64,000 nucleotides of DNA. Origin: Cryphonectria parasitica EP155. Its lineage: Eukaryota > Ascomycota > Sordariomycetes > Diaporthales > Cryphonectriaceae. A program made the translations under genes and the position numbers. The notes beneath the pieces are model-generated. The model did not search any database. It was not told the DNA's origin and saw only the letters and a program-made list of their open reading frames with translations. How positions within the stretch are numbered: position 1 is the stretch's first letter; each line of letters begins with the position of its first letter. The stretch covers positions 496,001 through 560,000 of the forward strand of contig NW_024468910.1 in the NCBI RefSeq assembly GCF_011745365.1, read 5' to 3'. Below, in pieces: positions 7,524-62,766 of this stretch.

Positions 7524-7979
7524 TGTAATGAGCACTGCAGCAATCCGAAGATTCCTAAGTACACGAAGGGGTTTATGCTAACAAGAGTGGGGTCAAAGTA
7601 TCAAGTCCTTGAATACGGAACTGTACAAGTTCTCAATAAGCGATGCAAGTGTTCACTGCCTTTGGGGCTATCAGAGTAGAGAGTAATCTGATACTTAGAT
7701 TGACAACTGAAGAGCTATGTACTGAGTCTATCTAATAGTAGTGAACGTATCCTTATATATTCAGCTCTTCAGTATGAATATGTTGAATAGCAACATATCC
7801 AAGTTATTCTGCTAGCTCTGGATAGCATATATCCGAAGCTATCCTTCCTAATTAGCCGTATTCATAATCCTAACCCTGGGTTATGTAATCAATGCTTTGT
7901 CAGAACGTTGAGTCCTTGATACCTGATCCCTGTTACTCGTGATCTGTTCTGTAATCTGCATGTTGGATGGGTTATAATA
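7524..7979 (-). repeat. Gypsy A 3' LTR (456 bp)
   Basis: Runs from TGTAATGAGC on the plus strand to GGTTATAATA, equivalent to GGTTATAACA. U3 carries the GGATATG/CATATCC-type segment shared with E3. It contains CCTAACCCTGGG. Confidence 0.92.
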
Positions 7980-8071: not shown

Positions 8072-8689
8072 ATGTTAAACAGAATTAACAAATCTCGTTC
8101 TTATGCTGAGAAAACTAGATAAAAGGATTCTCTTCTTTCCTTAGTTCTTAAAAACGCTATTACTATGCCTTCTTATTCCTTCTGCGAGGGTTGTAGTATT
8201 CAGTCTTATCAAATCTCTATTGAGGATTTCTCTCGCTGCGCTGAATATATCCGCCTGGATCGCTTTCAGTGCGATATTCAAGGGTTGAGCGCAGCGGAAA
8301 TTCGTCGGATAAGCATTCAATATCAATGCCTGGAGAACCAACTCGAGAGTGCTGAGGAGCAGCTGCGCGATGCTGCTGCGGAGGTAGGACGTTTGCGGAA
8401 GCAGAAGCGTCTGTGGTTTGAGAGGATGATGAAAGCTATTCGTTGAGGCCTCTTCAGCGTGGAGGAGCTAGAGCGTGAGGAGGCTGAGGAGGAGCGAGCT
8501 CGTGTTGCTGCCGGGGTTCGTTCCGTGGTTGCAGAGGAATCTGCTGCTGTTGCTGGAGATCCTTTCTTTGAGAGTTTCGATTGGAATTCTGTGGATGTAG
8601 GGAATTCAGTGGTAGATTGGTTGGGTTTTCTGGAGGGCGAGATTTCTGAGGCCTCTGGATCTCGGTTTGGGGCGGAGCGATCGTCCTAG
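8072..8689 (+). pseudogene. Antisense gene of gypsy A: Cys-cluster / coiled-coil / acidic-tail protein (type I)
   Basis: A single plus-strand frame of 206 codons, opposite to gag-pol, from ATG 8072 to TAG 8687-8689. Two in-frame stops (TAA 8120, TGA 8444) fit RIP. Order: basic N-terminus, Cys cluster (C-E-G-C...R-C-A-E-Y...Q-C, where Tyr matches a Cys in E3), coiled coil from about 75 to 125, then an acidic tail with FDWNSVDVG. The stop overlaps the pol stop on the other strand by two bases. No intron is needed, unlike E1 and B. The start lies about 90 bp from the 3' LTR, so U3 is the likely promoter side. Function is unknown; a DNA-binding regulator is inferred from the pattern only. Confidence 0.7.
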
Positions 8690-12503: not shown

Positions 12504-12970
12504 TGTAATGAGCACTGCAGCAATCCGAAGATTCCTAAGTACACGAAGGGGGTTTATGCTAACAAGAGCAGTGTCAAAGTGCCAAGTCCTTGAATACGGA
12601 ACCGTACAAGTCTCAGTAAGCGATGCAAGTGTTCACTGCCTTTGGGGCTATCAGAGTAGAGAGTAATCTGATACTTAGATTAACAACTAAAGAGCTATAT
12701 ACGAGATCTATCTGATGGGAATAAACGTATCCTTATATATCCAGCTCTTCAGTCCTGTTGGTAGTGTTGATTATTGGATCCCTTGGATCACCTGGATGAT
12801 CCAACTAATCCGGATCACCATGAATCAGCTACCAATCCATCCTGATCCTGTAATCCTAATCCTTGCTTATATAAGTCTTAGTTCTGGAGATGTTGAATCC
12901 TTCTCTGTCTTTCCGAACAGTTGTTCCGAGTATCCTAGCTGGAAATCTGTATGTTGGATGGATTATAACA
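12504..12970 (-). repeat. Gypsy B 3' LTR (467 bp)
   Basis: Same ends as the other family LTRs. U3 has a GGATCACC...GGTGATCC-type segment not found in A or E3. Length equals the 5' LTR at 23468-23934. Confidence 0.92.
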
Positions 12971-13062: not shown

Positions 13063-13712
13063 ATGTTGAACAAAATCAACAAATCGCATTCTAGTCGTTC
13101 GGTAAAAACTCAAGAGCATTATCGTCTTGCTAAGCTTATTTCTGCTTTTGGCATTGAAATGCCTGCTTATGCTTATTGTTAGGAGATGGGAGCTTTCTGT
13201 TGTTTCGCTGAAAACTCTTTTCGTTGTAGGAAGTATATTTCTCTGAGTTAAAGCTGTAATACTAGTTGTTTCTCAGCCTCTGCTGATTAGTTTCTTCATT
13301 TCTTAGTGTTCTCCGTGATTACTGATTTTCTCTTTTAGCAGGGCGTTTGATTCGTAAAAAGCACAAGGTTTTGAGCGAGGAAGCTGAAGCAGAGTCGGCA
13401 AACGCTGCTGCCCTACAAGCCTTGCTAGCATTGCAAGCTCGTCTTGATCGTGCACGGAAACAGCGAAAGTTGTTAAAGGAACATGCTGCAGAAATGATTC
13501 GTTGTGGCTTCAATTCCTTGAAGGGGTTTGCTGATGAGGAGGATCGTAGTCTTCATGAAGAGAAGATTCGTCTGATGTTTCAGGAACATCTTGAGATTAT
13601 CGACTGGAGTTCCTTGGATTTGGGAGGTTCTGTAATAGATTAGTTGAGCTTTCTGAAGAGTGAGGTTCCCGAAGCTTCTGGATCTCGGTCCGGGGCGGAG
13701 CGATCGTCTTAG
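13063..13712 (+). pseudogene. Antisense gene of gypsy B (type III), intron-containing
   Basis: Exon 1 13063-13285 (223 nt) and exon 2 13339-13712 (374 nt) give 199 codons in one frame when a 53-bp intron is removed. The acceptor is CTTTTAG at 13338. The donor reads G|ATTAGT where E1 has T|GTAAGT, so a G-to-A change has destroyed it. Exon 1 has the basic N-terminus and a Cys-rich block; exon 2 has a long coiled coil and an acidic tail with DWSSLDLGGS. Three in-frame stops fit RIP. TAG 13710-13712 overlaps the pol TAA 13711-13709. Intron phase (1) and position match E1. Confidence 0.68.
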
Positions 13713-23467: not shown

Positions 23468-23934
23468 TGTAATGAGCACTGCAGCAATCCGAAGATTCCT
23501 AAGTATACGAAGGGAGTTTATGCTAACAAGAGCGGTATCAAAGTGCTAAATCCTTGAATACAGAACCGTACAAGTCTCAGTAAGCAATGCAAGTATTCAC
23601 TGCCTTTAGAGCTATCAGAGTAGAAAGTAATCTGATACTTAGATTAACAACTGAAGAGCTATATACGAGATCTATCTGATGGGAATAAACGTGTTCTTAT
23701 ATATCCAGCTCTTCAGTCCTGTTGGTAGTGTTGGTTGTTGAATCCCTTGGATCACCTGGGTGATTCAACTGATCCGGATCACCATGGATCAGCCACCGAT
23801 CCATCCTGATCCTGTAACCCTAACCCTTGCTTATATAAGCCTTAGTTCTTGAGATGTCGAATCCTTCCCTGTCTTTCCGAACAGTTGTTCCGGGTGTCCT
23901 AGCTGGGAACCTGTATATTGGATGAGTCATAACA
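23468..23934 (-). repeat. Gypsy B 5' LTR (467 bp)
   Basis: Bounded by TGTAATGAGC on the left and GAGTCATAACA on the right, then the ATTAT duplication. It contains GTAACCCTAACCC and the GGATCACCTGGGTGAT palindrome in U3. Confidence 0.92.
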
Positions 23935-40441: not shown

Positions 40442-40902
40442 TGTTATGACCCATCCAACATGCAGGTCACGAGAACAGATCACAGGCAAGCAGGGACCAG
40501 GTGTCATGACTCAACATCAGGCAACCAACAAGGATTACGTAATCCAGGGTTAGGGTTACGAGTTCCACCAGGCAGGGATGGACCGCGAGGACCGCAAGCG
40601 GTCCTGTTGATGCAACCTTGGACCGCAACTATCGCCGTTGACTCTTACGGTTCATACTGAAGAGCTGGATATATAAGAACACGTTCCTTGCCATTAGATA
40701 GATTCAGTACATAGCTCTTCAGTTGTTAATCTAAGTCTTCAGTCTTACATACTGAGTAGCCCCAAAAGCAGTGAATACTTGTATCGCTTACTAGAACTTA
40801 TACAGTTCCATATTCAAGAACTTAATACTTTGATATCACTCTTGTTAGCATAAATCTCTTTGTATACTTTGGAATCTTCGGATTGCTGCAGTGCTCATTA
40901 CA
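40442..40902 (+). repeat. E2 5' LTR (461 bp)
   Basis: TGTTATGACC...CTCATTACA. U3 is of a fourth type, with GGACCGCGAGGACCGC and AAGCGGTCC. It contains CCAGGGTTAGGGTTACG. Followed by TTTTGACAACTC, the primer site. Confidence 0.9.
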
Positions 40903-41151
40903 TTTTGACAACTCTTGTTCAAGAATGGTTCAGTATTACCCTTTGAATAATATGGAATACGATAGCTTTTCCAGGAATCCCTTCGTTCTCGCGCGCTTCT
41001 ACTCAGGAAGAACTAATTAATCAGGTATATCAGCTTATCCAGCATATTCAGAACCTGCGCGAACAATAGCAGGCTTAGAGCGCTACCATCGCTAACTAAT
41101 AAGCTCAGCTAGCTTAACAAGCTCAGCAGATGCAGTTTATCTCTGCAATTA

Positions 41152-41606
41152 TGTTATGACCCATCCAACATGCAGGTCACGAAACAGATCACGAGCAACA
41201 AGGACCAGGTGTCAAGAACCCAACGTTCTGACAAAGCATTGATTACATAACCTAGGAAGGAGACAGGGATGGATCACTAGGAGCACCAGGAGCGCGGCTC
41301 ACTAGGCTCACCCGGATCACCGCGGTGATCCGCAAGACGCTGCCAGACAGTGATCCATACTGAAGAGCTGGATATATAAGAACACGGTCATTACCATTAG
41401 AAGAATTCAGTACATAGCTCTTCAGTTGTAAATCTAAGTATTCAGTCTTCATATACTGAGTAGCCCCAAAGGCAGTGAATACTTGCATCGCTTATTAGGA
41501 CTTGTACAGTTCCGTATTCAAGAACTTAACACTTTAATACTGCTCTTGTTAGCATAAATCCCTTCGTATACTTAGGAATCTTCGGATTGCTGCAGTACTC
41601 ATTACA
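41152..41606 (+). repeat. E1 5' LTR (455 bp)
   Basis: U3 has GATCACCGCGGTGATC; TATATAAG lies near 41370. The presumed RNA start motif is AGTTGTAAA (AGTTGTGAA in the 3' LTR). Confidence 0.93.
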
Positions 41607-41618
41607 TTTTTACAATTC
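41607..41618 (+). other. E1 primer-binding site (self-priming type)
   Basis: TTTTTACAATTC follows the LTR. Undoing C-to-T changes gives TTTTCACAACTC, complementary to AGTTGTGAA kept in the 3' LTR. A, E2 and E3 instead have TTTTGACAACTC (RIP-altered in A). Confidence 0.65.
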
Positions 41619-41665
41619 TTGTTCAAGAACGGTTCAGTATTACCCCTTGAGCAATACGGAATACG

Positions 41666-43850
41666 ATAGCTCCTCCAGGAACTCCTTCGTCCTCGCGCGC
41701 TCCTACTTAGGAAGAACTGGTTAACCAGATGTATCAGCTTACCCAGCGTATCCAGAATCTGCGCGAACAACAGCAGGCTTAAAGCGCTACCATTGCCAAC
41801 CAGCAGGCCCAGCTAGCCCAACAGGCTCAGCAGGCCCAGCTAGCCCAATAAGCTCAGCAGGCGCAGTCCACCTCTGCAGTTACCAGTAGTGCTAGAAAGG
41901 CATACAAGATGGATAAGCCCGCTATATACAACAGCAACCAGAAGACGCTACATGGGTTCCTTACCCACTGCAGAGCATACTTTTTGCATCATACAACCCA
42001 GTTCATCATGGAATCTGAGAAAGTTATTCTAGCAGGAACTCATCTCGAAAAGGATGCTCTCATCTGATACGAACCTTCTCTGCGCAACCACTTGGAGCAT
42101 TAGAACGATTCCAGCGTATGTACCCAGAGTACCAAGGATATATTCGATTCTTTTGAAAGCTTCGAGAAAGCTCTCAAAGAGATCTTTGGTAATCCCAACG
42201 AAGAACGTATTACAGCTTAGCAGCTTATGAACCTCAGACAGACTAAGTTGGCTTCTGCCTATACAGTTAGATTTAAGCAACTCTCAGCACAACTTCCGTA
42301 GGAAGATAAGAATCTCATGGAATACTATTACAAGGAACTCAAGAATAACATTAAAGATGAAATCTCCAAGCAGGATTAGCTGGAGAACTTTGTAACATTC
42401 TCCAATCAAGCTATCTGCATCAACAACTGTTTATACGAACGATGGATGAAGAAGTCTAAGAAGGAAGGAAGCTAGACTTGGAGGTTTTCAGCTAATACGG
42501 GCAAGAAATTCCAAAACAAGAATAGCAGTTGATATAGCAGTATAGCTCAGAGCAGCACTATGCATGCTAATTCCATGGAACTCAATACAGCTAATAAGCA
42601 GTATAGCAAGAAAAACAGTATTACTTGCTATAACTGCAATAAACAAGAATACATTGCATGCAACTGCTATCAATCCCAGAAGAACAAGTAGCAACTAATC
42701 CAGAAAGGATGCTAGGTAAATGTTGCTCGACGATAGGAATCTAATCAACTGAGCAAAAACACTCTCTCGGAGCAAGTATTGGATTCTGTTAATTACGGAA
42801 GTCTCAGCTGAACATTCTGCTATAACAACAACTGCTTAATACACCTCTCGAATAAGGAAGATTCAGAATAGTTCCCTTAGAAACCTAGATGCCGCAGACA
42901 AATAGTAACAGCAGGACGAGGGTGCACGCCCAGCACTCCTACAAGTAGCAACTCGAACTGTTCTAACATCATGAAACAGAGCATTCAAGCGTTGAAAGAA
43001 GAGCTTAGCAACGATACCCTTCAACATTCCTCATTGCCTACGCCAAGCACTATAACCAGGGATATAGATAAGGAATAATACCCTCTTAGCTACTGATACA
43101 AATATCTAGGCAATACAGAGAACGCTTCTCAAGCAATAGAAGGGTTAAGCCAGAGCAAACAACCTAGCAGCCCGCAGAAGCTCCCCGCAAACAACATGCC
43201 CAACAAACCTACAGGAAGATTTCCCTTCAGTATTGGGTGGAACAAGGAAACAACATGGATTGAATATCTCGTTTATAGGATAGGACTAAAGGAGCTCTTC
43301 ACCTGCATTCCCTTGCAAAACATCAAAGCACGAGAAGATAAGAACTCTTGGATCAGCTCACTTCACAACCTACACCACGAATTAGCTTAGATCTCCTGCA
43401 CCTATCATAGCTGCAGAATGCATTTCTCGGACAAAGTGCAGCACGAATAGTTCCCCATCAGAGAACCAGAGCAAATCCTTCAGGCTGTTGAAGAATAGGA
43501 ACTCCGCTTCAGAGAGGTTCTCAACAAACAACACTACAATGCATACATCGAGCTACCGGATGATTGCTCTATACAATGTGTAAACAAGAAGATAAAATGA
43601 TAGCAGTACAAAATGATACTCTGTACGATTCACATTAATAACAAAGTTCGCAACTAGCATCAACAGAAGAAAGACTAGGAATAATAACGATACGAGCAAA
43701 AACAAGCTAAGAAGCTCGCTCAAGAAGCAGCGAAGCAGGCTTAGAAGAATAAGCAGTTCTCAACAAACCTAAAAGAACAGGATCGCCTGTAAAGGAACTG
43801 CAGACGATCAGATTAGAACGGTTTCTATATAGAGCTTTCAAGATAGATTA
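41666..43850 (+). pseudogene. E1 gag and linker region
   Basis: Start equivalent is ATA at 41666 (ATG in B). A Gln/Ala-rich coiled segment repeats near 41790-41880. The capsid-like part is followed by a C-Y-N-C-N-K-Q knuckle near 42625-42665 in which the expected His reads Tyr. A further ~350 codons follow, with PFSIGWNKETTWIEYLVY (43220-43275) and a Cys-containing WISC...SCR block near 43390-43420. The block is conserved in A, B, E2 and E3, so it is a real part of this family's long Gag. Confidence 0.72.
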
Positions 43851-46800
43851 CGCTTACATCAAGTTCGATATATACATTCAAAGATACAAGTACAGCATAC
43901 TATTGAACAGTAGCGCTCAGAGAAACTTCATATTCCCATACATTGTTAATCAGGCACAACTACAATGGAGATGGAAGAGATGCCCATATACTCTCAGCAC
44001 TATAGAAAAACAATCTGTTGCATACAACCAAGGAGTAATCAATAAGGAAACTAATTATCTATCTGTTTTGATCCAAGAATGCGCAACCAGAGCTTCTTTT
44101 GATATCACGAATACAGCATAACATAAGCTGATTATAGAGCTTCCATAGCTCAAAGAACACAATCCTCGAATCGATTGAGCTACTGGCCAGATCTCATAGG
44201 AACAAGCTGTATCCAGAGAGATAGTTACAATCAATAGCGCAGGATCGAAGCTAGTGGTTGAAGAATACTCAGGAAAAGAAGCTTCACACAACTTCACACA
44301 TACCTCCAAGTCAGCAGGGCTAGCAGTTCAAGGAGAAGGACCTAGTGACAGGCGAACCCAAACAGTGCTAGGGCGCTAACAGGTTAGCAAAACAACGAAA
44401 GCGAGATTCTCAGCAAGTCGGTCCGCCCCGAAGCAATAAGGAAAGGCTTCAGAAAGTGGATTGTGGATTCACACGGGAAAAACCTCGAAACCAGGCCCTC
44501 GAGCGCTCGGTCCGGCCCGGAGCGGACGCTCAAGGCCCTCGAAAACGCCATCAGAAAAGAAGCACGCTCAACGGTACCTACTGTTCCTCCAGATAGCAGA
44601 AACAGCACAAGAACCAGAATCAACACTCGCGAACATACCACGAGAATACCACAAGTTCAAGAAACTATTCCAGAAAGAATTGGATACAGAATTGCCAGAA
44701 CACAGCCCATACAACTACGAGATCCTGCTACAAGAAGGGAAACAGCTCAAATTCTTCCCTATCTACGGACTAGACAAGGTACAGCTAGAGGCACTTCGGG
44801 AGTATCTCAACGAGAACCTTAAGAAAGGATACATACGATCATCGCAATCACCAGCAGAATATCCTATCCTGTTTATACCCAAGAAAAACAGCAAGCTCAG
44901 GCTATGTATTGATTACAAGCAACTCAACGATATTACAATCAAGAACCGATATCCGTTGCTACTCATCAAGGAATTACGAGATAGATTGCAAGAAGCACAA
45001 TAGTTTACAGTTCTAAACCTAAAAGGAGCTTACAACCTGATCAGAGTAAAGAAAGGAGAAGAATGGAAAACTGCCTTCAGAATGCGCTATGAACACTACG
45101 AATATTTGATCATGCTCTTCAGCTTAACAAACGCTTCAGCTTCATTCCAGGAGATAATCAATCACGTTCTATGCAAGCATCTGAATCAGTTCGTCATCGC
45201 ATACCTCGATAATATTCTTATTTACTCTCGAACACTTGAAGAACACAAGGAACATGTGGAAACAGTGCTGCAGACGCTCCAAGACGCAAAACTCCTTGTA
45301 AAACCCGCAAAGAATCACTTTTACAAACAAAAGATCAACTACCTCGGATTCACAATCAAGCTAGAATGCATTAAGCTACAGAAAAACAAGGTAAAAGCTA
45401 TCAGGAATTAGCCAGTTCCCAGGAATGTTAGGGATGTTAGATCTTTCCTCGGATACATCAACTTCTACAAGCAGTTCATTAAGAACTACAGCTGGATCGC
45501 ACATTCCCTTACAAATCTCACCAAAAAGAAGCAGCTCTTCGAGTGAAACCCCAAGGCGCAAGAAGCTTTCAATGAGATTATCAGGCATATTACCTCAGAG
45601 CCAATTCTGTATGAAGCAGACCCTTATAAACCCTTTGAAGTTGAGATCAATGCATCAGAATATGCACTCGGAGAACAACTTAGCTAGCAAAACAACCAAG
45701 AACGTCTAAGGATTATAAGCAACTTCTCAAAGAAGTTGAATAATCCGGAAATTAACTATGGAATCCCTAATCAGGAACTCATAGCAATAGTAAAAGCTTT
45801 CGAGAAATAGCAATACTACCTTATTAGCATACAATACCCGATTATAATTTACTCGGATTATAAGAATCTAACTACATTTATAATAACTAAGATTTTGAAT
45901 AAGCAATAAGTCAGATGAATAGAATTCCTCTTACAGTTCAATTTCAAGATTGTATACTGCAAAGGCTTAGAAAACGAACAAGCAAACGCTCTCAGCAGAA
46001 GATCAGACCATCGAGATGCAGATTCTTCGAATATACAGAACATCTTCGCTCAAAACGAGTCAGAGAATCTCATCAACATACATAGAGAACTGAATGCTGC
46101 TCTCAGGATCAAACCCTCGGAAAAGGATCCAGAATCAATAACTCCAAACGAACAAGATAACTACATCAAGAATATACACAGTACACTAGCATACAAGCAT
46201 CAGAAAGTCAGAGCAATCTATGAATGCATCAAAAAATACTGGAATCTACCAGATCTTAGAAAAAGAATTGAAAGCATTCTATAACAATGCAACAGCTGCA
46301 AGAAGAATAAGGCAGAAAAATACAAGCCTTATAGACTACTGCACTCCTTACCAATATCTACAACTATTTAGCAATTCATTAGTCTAGACTTTATTATTAA
46401 GCTATCTCTCTTATAAGAACTCTTAATTAAGATGCAATATAATAGCATTTTAGTAGTGGTTTGCAGACTGAGTAAGTATGCTTACTTTCTTCCCTACAAG
46501 GAAAGCAGTATAGCAGAAGAACTTGCATATGCATTCCTTAGAACGATCATCGCTAACCATAGCATGCTAGAAGAAGTAATCTCCAATAGAGATAGAAAGT
46601 TCAACTCGAAATTTTGAACTTTACTCATAAAACAGCTTGGAATACATTACAGAATATCTATAGCATTCCACTTGCAAACAGATGAATAGACAGAAAGAAT
46701 GAATCAGATTATCAAACAGTATTTTCAATACTATATTAACCAGAAATAGGACAACTGGATTAATCTATTGCTCCTCGTACAATTCGCTTATAATAGCGCA

Positions 46801-47427
46801 GATATAAGCATAACGAAGAAGTTATTATTCTTCGTACTCTATAGATACAACCCAACAGCTTACTACGAAGTACTGCTAGGAGCAGATGCAGAAGCTGCGG
46901 ATAAAAGAGTTAAGAAGATTAAGAAAATTCAAGAGGAACTTCAATTAGAATTATAATTCGTTCAAGAACGAATAATGCGATATGCAAACTCCAAAAGGAT
47001 TAAGAAACTAATCCTACAGGAGGAAGATAAGGCCTATCTACTTCGAAAAAACATCAAAACAATCAGATTCAGCGATAAACTCAACTACAAAAAGTTGGAA
47101 CTATTCAAAATCTTGCAACAGATTTCTCCGATCAACTACGAATTAGCATTATCTCATGGAATGAGGATACACCCAGTTTTCCACATCTTACTGCTAGAAC
47201 CAGCAGCACAGGAAATACTAACAGATAACACAGCAGAAGTGGAAAACAATAAACCAGAGTATGAGATAGAAAAGATTCTCAAGCACAGAAGCACAGACAA
47301 TACAAGGGAATATCTCATCAAATAAAAAGGTTACCCAGCAAGCGAAAATTCATGGGAACCACGGAAGAACGTTGAAAACGCTCAGGAAAAGGTAGCTGAA
47401 TATTGGAAAAAGAAAGCCAGCACCTAA
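43851..47427 (+). pseudogene. E1 pol: PR-RT-RNase H-IN-chromodomain
   Basis: Protease site near 43900 (LLNSSAQRNFI, for LLDSGAQGNF). RT 44755-45375 with IAYLDNILIYS at 45196-45228 (YLDN for YLDD). RNase H about 45590-46020. Integrase with C-N-S-C-K-K near 46290, then catalytic D (46387), D (46591) and E (46693). The chromodomain is at about 47260-47385 (EYEIEKILKHR...KGYPASENSWEP), which in chromoviruses steers integration to modified histones. Final TAA is 47425-47427. Stops inside are RIP-type. Confidence 0.88.
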
Positions 47428-48133
47428 GACAACCGCTCCAGCCCGAAGAGGAGCTCAGAGCCCACCATCTCACCCAAAAATCCAGAATAATCCACAACAG
47501 CCCTACTAGGATTAATAGAGTTCCAGTCAAAACCATCAAACAAGAGATCCTCAGCTAAAATACTCTCAGCCGATACTGCTTCACAAACCGATGCAGCAAG
47601 GTTGCATTCCTCCTTCTTACAACGTTCCCGCTCATCCAGCTTATCAAGGAACTCGAGACCCGCATTCACCATTTGAGCGCCCCGAGAGGCAAGAGATCTA
47701 CGCTGGGTGCGCAGGCGAGCAAGACGGGCAGCGGACTCCGAGATCTTCGCGCGCGCCTCGTCAAGAACTTCCAACGCTCGACGATAAGCTCTCTCCAACT
47801 CTGCCTCCGCCTCCCGCTCCTTCGATTCCAGCCTCTTATCTTCTGCTATAATACGCGAAACTAAGAAAAGAAGAAGGGCATCAGCGAAGGGGTTAGAAAA
47901 GGAGAAAAAGGGGACTTACAAGCAGAAACAGGAATCCCACAGCCATTACAAGAACGAGCACAACGGATACACTGAGAACAACGCTTTGCATCATCCATCA
48001 TCTTGCATACCAGGCCCCGGAAAGCGCAAGCGGTGCAAAGCATAATCTCAAAACCAAACTGATCAACAGCTAGGAAAAGACGGTTATGCTATTCAGTTTT
48101 CTTGGAAAAAGATTTCTCAATCCTGCTCAACAT
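47424..48133 (-). pseudogene. Antisense spliced gene of gypsy E1: Zn(II)2Cys6-like / coiled coil / acidic tail (type II)
   Basis: Exon 1 48133-47920, intron 47919-47861 (59 bp: GTAAGT donor, TTCTAACC branch site, TTTTCTTAG acceptor), exon 2 47860-47424. The phase-1 junction joins the frames exactly: 217 codons, with one RIP-type stop (TAG, codon 15). A second ATG at 48043 follows that stop and would give 186 aa. From it the cysteines are spaced C-x2-C-x6-C-x8-C-x2-C-x6-C, the binuclear zinc-cluster spacing of fungal regulators, though the usual basic residues are sparse. A coiled coil and an acidic tail with FDWNSINPSRAVVDYSGFL follow. TAG 47426-47424 overlaps the pol TAA by two bases. The intron can survive retrotransposition only because the gene lies on the non-genomic strand. 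Confidence 0.78.
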
Positions 48134-48225
48134 CTCAATTAGGAAGGCAAGATCATGCATACAGAAAACTTGCCAGAATACTTACGGAAGATCATTAGGA
48201 ACAACAATCGATAGAAGGGAGATGA

Positions 48226-48680
48226 TGTTATAACTCATCCAACATGCAGATCACGAAACAGATCACGAGCAACAAGAACCAGGTATCAAGAACCCAACGT
48301 TCTGACAAAGCATTGATTACATAACCTAGGAAGGAGACAGAGATGGATCACTAGGAGCACCAGAAGCGCGGCTCACTAGGCTCACCCGGATCACCGCGGT
48401 GATCCGCAAGACGCTGCCAGACAGTAATCCATACTGAAGAGCTGGATATATAAGAACACAGTCATTACCATTAGAAGGATTCAGTACATAGCTCTTCAGT
48501 TGTGAATCTAAGTATTCAGTCTTCATACACTGAGTAGCTCCAAAGGCAGTGAACACTTGCATCGCTTATTAGGACTTGTACGGTTCCGTATTCAAGGACT
48601 TGACACTTTGACACCGCTCTTGTTAGCATAAACCCCTTCGTGTACTTAGGAATCTTCGGATTGCTGCAGTGCTCATTACA
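48226..48680 (+). repeat. E1 3' LTR (455 bp)
   Basis: Preceded by the purine-rich AGAAGGGAGATGA. Differs from the 5' LTR at a small number of transition sites. Followed by AATTA. Confidence 0.93.
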
Positions 48681-49012
48681 AATTACTAATAATGCTGGAA
48701 AAGCATATAAGATGAATAAGCTTGCTATATATAATAGCAATCAAAAAACGCTGTATAGATTCCTTATCTACTGCAGAGCATACTTTCTGCATTATACAAT
48801 CTAGTTTACTATAGAATCTGAGAAAGTTATTCTTGCAGAAACTCGTTTCGAAAAGAATGCTCTTATCTAGTATAAACTTTCTCTATGCAACTACTTGAAG
48901 CATTAGAATAATTCCGATATATATACTCAGAGTACTAAGAATATATTTAATTTCTTTGTAAGCTTTGAAAAAGCTTTTAAGAAAATCTTTGGCAATTCTA
49001 ATGAAGAATATA
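48681..49012 (+). pseudogene. E2 gag fragment between E1 and C2
   Basis: Resumes the coiled/capsid region of E2 gag after the AATTA duplication and ends in ATATA, the C2 target duplication. Confidence 0.8.
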
Positions 49013-49316: not shown

Positions 49317-50423
49317 ATGGAGCGCGAACCTGACGACCTCACGCTCTCGGTAAAGTGCACCGACACCTACTCCTTTCCATCCTGATACAGCATTTTGCAG
49401 TCCCAGAGCAAGGGAAAGGGTGTTTGGGAGTATCTAGACCCGGATGGCCCAGATGCGCCCTTTCTCGAACTTGAAGACTTCGACCTCGAGTTCTCCAAGT
49501 TCACTCAGGATCTTGAGGAGGAGCGCAAAAATATCATAACGGAGAACTACAAGCTACTCTCTATCCAGGAACAAGCCATCCTCTATGATCAGGAGATGAA
49601 ACGCTTTCAGCTTCGTCAAAACAAGCAGTTGCGTGCTTATCAGAACGTACAGAGGATGTGGAACTGGATTCAGAAAACAGTATCTCCGTCAGTCCTCGTT
49701 CCTCATATGCATATCTATTCAGGAAAGAAGTCTCCCTCGATTCAACAGGTGCTCAGGAACCTGAAGAAAGACCTCTGTCCGTCCGAGGAGAGCATGAAAC
49801 AGGTCGTTCGCTTCCAGTACCGCCATCACCTTGAGCTGGCCACCAGGCAAGGCACCGATTTCCAAAACTAGTGCCAGCAGCACCAGGATCTCCTGAACCT
49901 AGCTCGGGTTTACAGCATTGACGAAGTTGAGGGACTTCAGGGCTCTGATAACTTCCTCGCTGCTGTTGGAGTTCGCTTCCAGATAGAGTGGGCCAAAACG
50001 CAACGACATCTCCTTGCTACAGCACCTGATGATGGTCTGCCTATCAAGACTATCGAACAGCTTCAACGAAATCTCGCTTCAATCCACCGACTTCGGCCTG
50101 AGCAGAAAAAAGGCTCAATAGTGTTCGCTACTATAGGCGGAGAGAACCCACAATCCGGCAACTCAGGCACAAAATCTGGGAAGAAACAAGGTGGATCTTC
50201 CAGCCAGAGCGAAAAGGGAGATTACAAGTGCCCCTGCGAGTCGTATCAAAGGAAGCATAAATGGGGCCCTATGAGCTGCGGAAGGCTGGAGTATGCTTGT
50301 ACCGGAATCAGGCCAGACTCAATCTTCAAGGCCCCATCTGACGAGCAAAGAAAGAAGATCCTCTCTAAGCTGGCCAGCAAAAACTATCAGGAGCTCCGTT
50401 CAGATCTTATCAGAACTAGATAG
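49317..50423 (+). pseudogene. C2 gag, nearly intact (two internal stops)
   Basis: ATG 49317 to TAG 50421-50423, 369 codons. Internal TGA (about 49383; TGG in C3) and TAG (about 49869) are single transitions. The N-terminal 160 residues are charged and helical. A Cys-rich CPCESYQRKHKWGPMSCG block near 50229-50285 sits where a nucleic-acid-binding knuckle is expected. C1 has the same terminal TAG, so gag ends here by design and pol lies in another frame. Confidence 0.8.
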
Positions 50424-61613: not shown

Positions 61614-62221
61614 AACAACCGCTCCAGCCCGGAGAAAAGCCCAGAGCCCACCATCTTATCCAAAAACCCAGACCAATCCATCACTGCATTCCCCACATCC
61701 ACGGAATTCCAGTCAAAACCCTTAAAAGAAGAATCTTCAGCAATTACAGCAGATTCCTCTGCAATCATAGAACAAATCCCAGCAGCAATGCAAGCTCGCT
61801 TCTTCTCAGCCTTCTCACATTCCAACTCCTCCACACTGGAAAGGCCTCAACAAATAGCTTTTATTATTCTCTCAAACTACAAACGCTTCTGCTTTCGCAA
61901 ACATTCTATCTCTGCAGCAGCATCGCGCAGCCGCTTCTCAGCACTCTCGAATTGGTTCTCCAGGCATTAGTGCTGAATGCCTATTCAACGAATTTCCGCT
62001 GCGCTCAACCCTTGAATATTGCACTGAGAGCAACTCAGGCGGATACATTCAGCGCAGCGAGAGGAATCCTCAACGGAAACTTGACAAGACTGAATACCAC
62101 AACCCTTGCAGAAAGAACAAGAAAGTATAATGATAGCGTTTTGAAGAACCAAGGAAAGAAGAGAATCCTTTTGTTTAGTCTTCTTAGTATAAGAGCGGGA
62201 TTTGTTGATTCTGTTCAATAT
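61610..62221 (-). pseudogene. Antisense gene of gypsy E3 (type I)
   Basis: One minus-strand frame of 204 codons. The start reads ATA (62221-62219) where gypsy A has ATG. The Cys block is better kept than in A: C-K-G-C...C...R-C-A-E-C-I-R-L-S-C-S-Q-C. Coiled coil and acidic tail with FDWNSVDVGNAVMDWSGFL match A closely. TAG 61612-61610 overlaps the pol TAA. No intron. Several RIP-type stops lie in the middle. Confidence 0.68.
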
Positions 62222-62313: not shown

Positions 62314-62766
62314 TATTATAACCCATCCAACATGCAGATTACAGAACAGATCACGGGTAACAGGGATCAGGCATCAAGGACTCAACATTCTGACAAAGCA
62401 TTGATTACATAATCCAGAGTTAGGGTTATGAGCATGGCTAATCAGGAAGGATAGCTTCGGATATGTGCTATTCAGAGCTAGCAGAATAACTTGAATATAT
62501 TGCTATCCAACATATCCATACTAAAGAGCTGGATATATAAGAACACGTTCATTACCATTAGATAGATTCAGTACATAGCTCTTCAGTTGTCAATCTAAGT
62601 ATTCAGTTTCATACACTGAGTAGCCCCAAAGGCAGTGAACACTTGCATCGCTTATTAGGACTTGTACGGTTCCGTATTCAAGGACTTGACACTTTGACAC
62701 CGCTCTTGTTAGCATAAACCCCTTCGTGTACTTAGGAATCTTCGGATTGCTGCAGTGCTCATTACA
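62314..62766 (+). repeat. E3 3' LTR (453 bp)
   Basis: Starts TATTATAACCC (TGTTAT, one G-to-A). TATATAA 62534-62540 and AGTTGTCAA 62585-62593 are intact. Followed by TCAGC. Confidence 0.93.

Follow-up and report, generated by a model that had tools for sequence, protein, structure and literature searches.

The DNA analysed here, a stretch of 64,000 nucleotides from Cryphonectria parasitica EP155 (contig NW_024468910.1, positions 496,001 to 560,000; hereafter the window), contains a Ty3/gypsy chromovirus that carries a spliced gene antisense to gag-pol. This gene is one member of a large fungal family characterised by six cysteines, a coiled coil and an acidic tail and fixed between pol and the 3' long terminal repeat (LTR), and the N-terminal core of its product pairs by type with a variable block of ~90 bp in the U3 (unique 3') part of the LTR. 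With a probability of roughly 0.7, we consider it an integral accessory gene of this chromovirus lineage, the zinc-cluster/coiled-coil product of which would bind the U3 array of its own type and control the LTR, most likely activating it. The gene and its host element comprise the following features.

47920 to 48043, minus strand: exon 1 with the six-cysteine cluster, starting at ATG 48043
47861 to 47919, minus strand: intron of 59 nt in phase 1, GTAAGT...TTCTAACC...TTTTCTTAG
47424 to 47860, minus strand: exon 2, coiled coil and acidic tail (FDW...VDYSGFL), stop at 47426-47424
48044 to 48133, minus strand: N-terminal extension known from relatives, with a TAG after codon 14 in this copy
48134 to 48225, minus strand: leader from the native antisense ATG up to the 3' LTR, purine-rich in one tract (by eye) and similar across all antisense types
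41152 to 48680, plus strand: Ty3/gypsy chromovirus hosting the antisense gene, with 455-bp LTRs; RVT_1 and Chromo found in Pfam scans of separate pieces
41152 to 41606, plus strand: 5' LTR, 94.9% identical to the 3' LTR
48226 to 48680, plus strand: 3' LTR, pair partner of the 5' LTR
46975 to 47427, plus strand: pol C-terminus, SH3-like domain and chromodomain, with an in-frame stop at 47323-47325 and the terminal TAA at 47425-47427

The first-pass annotation had placed the gene at 47424 to 48133 and described two minus-strand exons joined in phase 1 by a 59-nt intron with a GTAAGT donor. Both the exon coordinates and the spliced product of 186 aa were reproduced, the Zn(II)2Cys6-like cysteine spacing in exon 1 (C-x2-C-x6-C-x8-C-x2-C-x6-C) is present in that product, and the description of exon 2 as a coiled coil followed by an acidic tail is supported. 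The gene is real, but the upper limit of the span is not the start of the product: 48133 is equivalent to the ATG of the relatives, which are longer by about 30 N-terminal residues, and in this copy the frame opened by that native start runs into the stop, the 186-aa product beginning at the downstream ATG 48043.

The intron of the antisense gene is real. The NCBI model P0001 corresponds exactly to locus L006 minus a 58-nt intron and cannot be read from any of its three forward frames without splicing, and the first part of P0002 likewise matches L073 after removal of 57 nt. Among 14 close copies the AG acceptor and the CTRAY motif are present in all and the GT donor in 11, the remaining three having an AT donor, as expected from a TG-to-TA change. 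Exon indels are absent from four of these copies and amount only to 3, 6 or 21 nt in nine (about three inherited events), the single exception to frame-keeping being L017, with a truncated exon 1 and a 2-nt indel; of nine intron indels in seven copies (1, 1, 4, 2, 2, 1, 1, 2 and 1 nt), none is a multiple of 3. In the intronless subfamilies of the same genome the reading continues over the junction with an equal residue count (C-x11-R-I). The idea that two open reading frames (ORFs) are joined here by chance was rejected on the genome-wide copies, the frame-keeping exon indels and the annotated spliced protein. In a quick tree, the intron-bearing types a and b form one clade with P0118 of Cytospora mali (5 of 45 rows, Shimodaira-Hasegawa-like approximate likelihood ratio test 100), so that one change of intron state is enough; as the tree is unrooted, intron gain is put forward only as the simpler reading. 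The earlier argument, that an antisense intron is not spliced out of the genomic RNA and can therefore persist through transposition, is sound.

The genome that was searched for copies spans 43.8 Mb in 17 contigs and includes the window. It contains 42 DNA matches of the antisense gene at E <= 0.001 and at least 155 protein matches at E <= 1 (with the exons counted separately and 150 of 348 candidates scored), the window's own gene being included in both counts. A first protein search with the antisense product yielded five proteins, every one of C. parasitica; with seven aligned members as the query the number rose to 16, and with nine to at least 160 at E <= 0.1 (7,997 candidates scored, 120 listed). 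The matches listed come from Pyricularia, Colletotrichum, Cytospora, Cordyceps, Beauveria, Metarhizium, Hirsutella, Fusarium decemcellulare, Gaeumannomyces, Apiospora and Microdochium, all of which we take to be Sordariomycetes, together with many metagenome proteins; homologues of the spliced product, which the first-pass annotation had proposed to look for in fungal proteomes, are found across several genera. Each of the six cysteines is at least 90% conserved in 93 aligned homologues, the six-cysteine pattern occurs in 110 of 127 proteins (with x2-x7-x9-x2-x7 spacing in 89 of those 110), and the acidic aromatic tail is conserved as FDWNSV...VVDWSGFL. A search of a plasmid collection gave no match to the antisense gene. 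Four models of Pyricularia oryzae 70-15 (P0021, P0025, P0031 and P0045) are family members annotated as transcript variants and may point to antisense transcription. Separately, the DNA of the acidic tail (the last ~120 nt, window 47424-47543, and its relatives) falls into two types, with GLERLS and SGSRSGAERSS endings, that do not follow core type, as if tails had been exchanged by tail-core recombination.

The location of the gene is fixed. A distance of 3-60 nt separates the end of the pol chromodomain, encoded on the opposite strand, from the 3' end of the antisense gene in 73 of 76 locus rows (the rows include repeats of a place, and the three without a chromodomain represent one place), and an LTR edge is recognised upstream of the antisense gene in 68 of the 76; the gene is, in short, an antisense additional ORF between pol and the 3' LTR (aORF-3R). 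In 45 of 48 chosen places, compared with at most 25 pairs per comparison and with types c and l represented by one place each, pol is as similar between antisense subfamilies (medians 0.73-0.86) as within them (0.75-0.82). The antisense core gives 0.84, 0.73 and 0.86 within types a, b and d and only 0.48-0.61 between subfamilies, close to unalignable (shuffle 0.46). U3 has three sections: its distal part and the TATA region are conserved, and the block that separates them, about 80-105 bp long, is variable and changes from one antisense type to another.

The correspondence between core and block was measured with type labels unused, by average-linkage clustering, and with the LTRs of further, more distant antisense genes added. 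From 80 places, reached after leaving out duplicates and the interrupted place L026/L027/L073, 67 had a leader, an LTR and a TATA region, and 65 of these also a core. Core clusters and block clusters of the 65 places agree with an adjusted Rand index (ARI) of 0.984, compared with a maximum of 0.201 in 2000 permutations, and the Mantel r between core and block is 0.92 (maximum of 1000 permutations 0.16). The agreement is stable across core thresholds of 0.25-0.36 (ARI 0.98-1.0) and falls to 0.66-0.67 at 0.42; with the two largest types removed, the 24 places left give r 0.77 for core and block, 0.26 for core and distal U3 and 0.40 for core and leader. Between types, the medians of core and block are both 0.50 (nulls 0.48 and 0.44), and those of leader, distal U3 and TATA region are 0.79, 0.75 and 0.85. 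A single pair, L042 and L002, illustrates the pattern: leader 0.92, distal U3 0.88 and TATA region 0.93, but core 0.51 and block 0.43.

One competing account, which we hold to be improbable, is that core and U3 block co-vary as a linked cassette of old lineages without interacting, with pol, leader and distal U3 kept alike by recombination and constraint. In its favour, core and block share the 3' end of the element, both LTRs inherit the U3 of that end, and the initial 300 nt of the LTR, taken as a whole, vary with type; fast, unconstrained drift of both core and block would also fit. What argues against such passive linkage is the DNA that lies between the two: leader and distal U3 follow the types only loosely, with Mantel r to the core of 0.37 each (0.32 for the TATA region) and a best ARI with the core of 0.30 for the leader, 0.43 for distal U3 and 0.28 for the TATA region, and the partial r between core and block given all three remains 0.89. 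Several blocks, moreover, carry motif arrays. In the window these are located as follows.

41267 to 41361, no strand: U3 block of type a in the 5' LTR, a predicted operator array of GGATCAC/GTGATCC half-sites, upstream of the TATA region
48341 to 48435, no strand: type-a U3 block of the 3' LTR, the copy used for the repeat and pairing analyses
48387 to 48406 (5' LTR: 41313-41332), no strand: 20-bp perfect palindrome CGGATCACCGCGGTGATCCG, matched by 0 of 200 nulls
48436 to 48454 (5' LTR copy: 41362-41380), plus strand: sense TATA region GAAGAGCTGGATATATAAG

With one representative per type, eight types were tested for block repeats and arrays above chance were found in five. The type-a block of the window's 3' LTR contains seven GTGATCC/GGATCAC sites at no more than one mismatch, a number reached by 0 of 300 Markov nulls; the blocks of types b, e and g contain eight TGATCAC, six GGCTCGC and six TGACTAT (0 of 300 nulls in each case), and that of type d five CTATCCA (6 of 300). 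Types c, f and l have four repeats each, within chance (73, 54 and 52 of 300 nulls), and the same test on distal U3 gave near-chance values in all types but f (11 of 200). By eye, the sites in the a, b and e blocks recur about every 9-10 bp. Exact words, picked after inspection and compared with L135 left out, are nearly restricted to their own type; the exceptions are the type-a word, which the blocks of types l, f and b contain too, and the type-c word, which occurs also outside its block.

We read the antisense core and the U3 block as a co-diversified regulator and predicted binding-site array, with a logic similar to that of the plant protein VANC. Partly palindromic sites upstream of a TATA box that change together with a coiled-coil zinc-cluster protein, unlike the intervening DNA, have the look of an operator and its regulator. 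The antisense gene, once expressed, would yield a DNA-binding protein, probably a dimer, that combines a zinc cluster and a coiled coil with an acidic aromatic tail. This protein would recognise the short half-site array in the variable block just upstream of its own type's sense TATA region and control its own LTR, most likely as an on-switch (activation or anti-silencing); it would probably serve as the element's private switch. Since reverse transcription rebuilds both LTRs from the 3' U3, regulator and array, lying at the same end of the element, would be carried jointly into each new copy, and the types would stay matched while pol is shared.

The same pairing and the same palindromic arrays near the TATA box, along with the coexistence of many types in one genome, would also suit a repressor that limits copy number or confers immunity, the types being heteroimmune groups that silence only their own kind. 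We find this unlikely and favour a positive role, given that the array is placed upstream of the TATA region, not across it, and that the conserved tail is both acidic and aromatic; tails of this kind resemble activation domains. A broader picture that we consider somewhat better than an even bet is that one chromovirus lineage contains about ten compatibility groups, reminiscent of phage immunity, each with its own zinc-cluster regulator and operator array, among which pol and the other LTR parts recombine; the intron of one clade would survive by being antisense, and the halves of the zinc cluster may be swapped.

Protein-level constraint was gauged by codon-position counts minus changes of the repeat-induced point mutation (RIP) type, in place of the dN/dS (nonsynonymous to synonymous rate ratio) that the first-pass annotation had proposed. 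In type a the remaining rates at the three codon positions are, in order, 0.084, 0.076 and 0.133, against 0.148 for the intron (13 of the 14 close copies, L017 left out), a visible third-position excess; in type d (26 copies) they are 0.0885, 0.0506 and 0.0965, position 1 being nearly as free as position 3, and the only indel is of 1 nt. These figures bear on the account to which we give least credence, namely that the antisense transcript and not the protein acts, as double-stranded RNA (dsRNA) that feeds silencing or tempers gag-pol expression. The convergent genes do overlap, in that the antisense TAG at 47424-47426 shares 2 nt with the pol TAA at 47425-47427, and passages of PMC7264820 consider such dsRNA roles for the antisense transcripts of plant elements, but conservation at the protein level across genera with all six cysteines kept, exon indels that keep the frame, and the third-position excess of non-RIP changes all speak for a protein.

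Several observations weigh against the regulatory interpretation. The pairing of L017, L024, L133 and L135 is not clean, and 15 of the 80 places are unscored. The permutation values overstate independence because the copies share ancestry, and the effective sample is about ten types, not 65 copies. Purifying selection on the antisense frame appears modest within copies. The window product found no match to PF00172 in the Pfam test, and none of 93 members reaches the gathering cut-off of this family, 22 matching at E <= 10 with a best E of 0.13; assignment by hidden Markov model, as originally envisaged, failed. The loop between the second and third cysteines has a mean of 1.27 K/R in 88 members (one in the window product) versus 4.15 in 34 host Zn2Cys6 domains, so that the basic loop of the latter is missing from the antisense family, and the AlphaFold model of P0007, of an intronless type, gave no PDB match by Foldseek and nothing useful in BFVD. 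For the claim that the element encodes its own regulator, the comparative core-block pairing is strong, whereas the PF00172 search, the basic loop and the P0007 model do not bear it out.

The nature of the zinc cluster deserves separate comment. The canonical spacing C-x2-C-x6-C-x5-12-C-x2-C-x6-8-C fits the window product but only 20 of 127 homologues, most of which have x7-x9-x7, and sequence searches of the PDB with the family returned nothing convincing. In the AlphaFold model of P0118, a protein close to type b, the cysteine part forms short helices and an 86-residue helix follows; 23 of the model's 27 weak PDB structure matches are Gal4, Leu3, Hap1, Put3, Ppr1, AlcR or Pho7 entries, presumably all Zn2Cys6 proteins, and the others are one 'DNA-binding protein' and three kinetochore complexes. 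A Zn2Cys6 fold is, on this model, weakly supported for P0118 only. Profile-profile comparison with 14 host Zn2Cys6 domains produced a short out-of-register match of the first half to the second half (probability 59%; 0.4-4.4% in 10 column-shuffled controls), and the halves were therefore compared in swapped order as well. In 57 of 66 non-redundant members the cysteine halves fit Zn2Cys6 better when swapped, although the signal is weak, column shuffles reaching the observed score in 15 of 500 cases for the swapped order and 55 of 500 for the direct one. An Asp follows the sixth cysteine in 88 of 88 family members and the third cysteine in 23 of 34 host domains. The notion of a Zn2Cys6 cluster with its halves in swapped order is suggestive only. 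Capture of a host Zn2Cys6 gene was considered and set aside: there is no PF00172 score, and among the listed homologues only P0118 is labelled a Zn(2)-C6 fungal-type domain protein (in UniRef), the others being 'hypothetical' or bearing automatic coiled-coil names. We deem it highly improbable that the product has no connection with the U3 block and is an accessory protein with a structural or host-directed role, for instance in nuclear import or in integration targeting with the chromodomain. The long coiled-coil-like helix would suit such a role, and a nuclear antisense-encoded protein is reported for Grande in part of PMC7264820, but the core-to-block pairing is not predicted by it.

Some places stand apart from the pairing test. 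Type-c places L035, L074, L075 and L120 were dropped on account of a deviating TATA region; by eye, the blocks of type c in L035, L115 (= L075) and L120 resemble one another. L017 and L024 are truncated antisense genes with the LTR joined to the exon 1 end or near the intron end, and their blocks resemble types e and g. The window itself contains three further antisense genes.

8075-8686, plus strand: type-d antisense gene, intronless, with LTR 7524-7977 and a type-d block
61616-62218, minus strand: type-d antisense gene, intronless, with LTR 62316-62766 and a type-d block
13063-13685, plus strand: fourth antisense gene of the window, decayed and of a new type, with LTR at about 12504-12970 and a similar LTR at 23468-23930

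The last of these, which lies outside the pairing test, has a core and a block unlike all others (best 0.56 and 0.57), including a GGATCA/TGATCC block of its own; its leader (0.88) and TATA region (0.92) match known ones, and distal U3 is odd (0.62). The reading frame of its coiled coil differs from that of its cysteine part, which would suit an intron in this gene as well.

The host element of the spliced gene is flanked on both sides by a 5-bp target duplication, AATTA (41147-41151 and 48681-48685), and its LTR end was set by comparison with other copies. The 23 differences between its LTRs are transitions without exception, and its gag-pol is split into pieces by stops. In separate pieces, RVT_1 scores 61.2 bits, SH3_Tf2-1 46.6 bits and Chromo 33.5 bits (cut-off 25.1), which identifies it as a chromovirus. 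It is nested inside an older element of the same group, the LTR of which, at 40442-40896, has a block with GGACCGC/GCGGTCC repeats (by eye), a type not represented among the antisense genes sampled. Also by eye, a TTATAAC at the LTR edge looks like a RIP product, and a plus-strand ORF at 49395-49871, outside the nested element, resembles a portion of another retroelement's gag.

Because the type of an antisense gene predicts which promoter array it should bind, the proposed function is directly testable. If the proposal is correct, it would reveal self-regulation and group identity in fungal retrotransposons, help to explain the coexistence of related elements in one genome, provide many natural protein-site pairs for learning zinc-cluster recognition, and offer a clear case of a retroelement intron kept on the strand that never serves as genomic RNA.

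Antisense genes of LTR elements have precedents. The brtn gene of Boty-like retrotransposons in Botrytis cinerea was reportedly described as antisense by Zhao et al. in 2011 (Virology 417:248). In the parts available of the papers that mention it, brtn is an added gene opposite gag-pol in a fungal Ty3/gypsy element with a chromodomain in pol (PMC8365987, PMC7264820, PMC4227169), reported in Sclerotinia as well (PMC7264820). The C. parasitica gene is likewise antisense to gag-pol of a chromodomain-bearing fungal Ty3/gypsy element, a likeness of description; no brtn-named or Botrytis protein is among the homologue matches listed. Antisense genes of fungal gypsy elements were, then, already known, but the titles and abstracts searched, among which subscription papers are thinly covered, mention neither a spliced antisense zinc-cluster gene nor a protein-to-LTR pairing in fungi.

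In plants, antisense genes of LTR elements are described, in passages of PMC7264820, as long known and of no established function. Sections of PMC11963269 and PMC7264820 report that Retand/Grande elements carry an antisense ORF located after pol and before the 3' LTR, for which a DNA-binding TRP28 domain is possible and a regulatory role is suggested; the word 'intron' is absent from the main text of PMC11963269, and no protein-to-LTR pairing appears in these sections of the two accounts. Retand/Grande and the C. parasitica element are alike in the position of the antisense ORF and differ in the protein domain. HBZ of human T-cell leukemia virus 1 (HTLV-1) has a spliced main mRNA and is a bZIP protein, and we know of no type-specific arrays associated with it. 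It is presented as a nuclear antisense product in part of PMC11963269, with an antisense promoter inside the 3' LTR according to part of PMC7264820. It resembles our case as the antisense gene product of an LTR element and differs in belonging to an animal retrovirus and in being an unrelated protein. With fungal Zn2Cys6 factors (PF00172), the family shares the spacing of the window subfamily, a cysteine cluster followed by a long helix and the leading structure matches of the P0118 model; it differs from them in scoring below the PF00172 cut-off and in having no basic loop between the second and third cysteines.

The nearest working parallel to the antisense protein is VANC of Arabidopsis VANDAL elements. 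VANDALs are plant elements of another class, DNA transposons, and to our knowledge VANC is neither antisense to pol nor known as a zinc-cluster protein. As far as the available text of PMC5735166 goes, VANC is an anti-silencing protein and sequence-specific DNA binder with demonstrated binding and demethylation, its targets are arrays of short motifs in non-coding DNA that differ between related families, and coevolution is proposed. In C. parasitica, too, motif arrays in the non-coding DNA of the element co-vary with an element-encoded, predicted DNA-binding protein.
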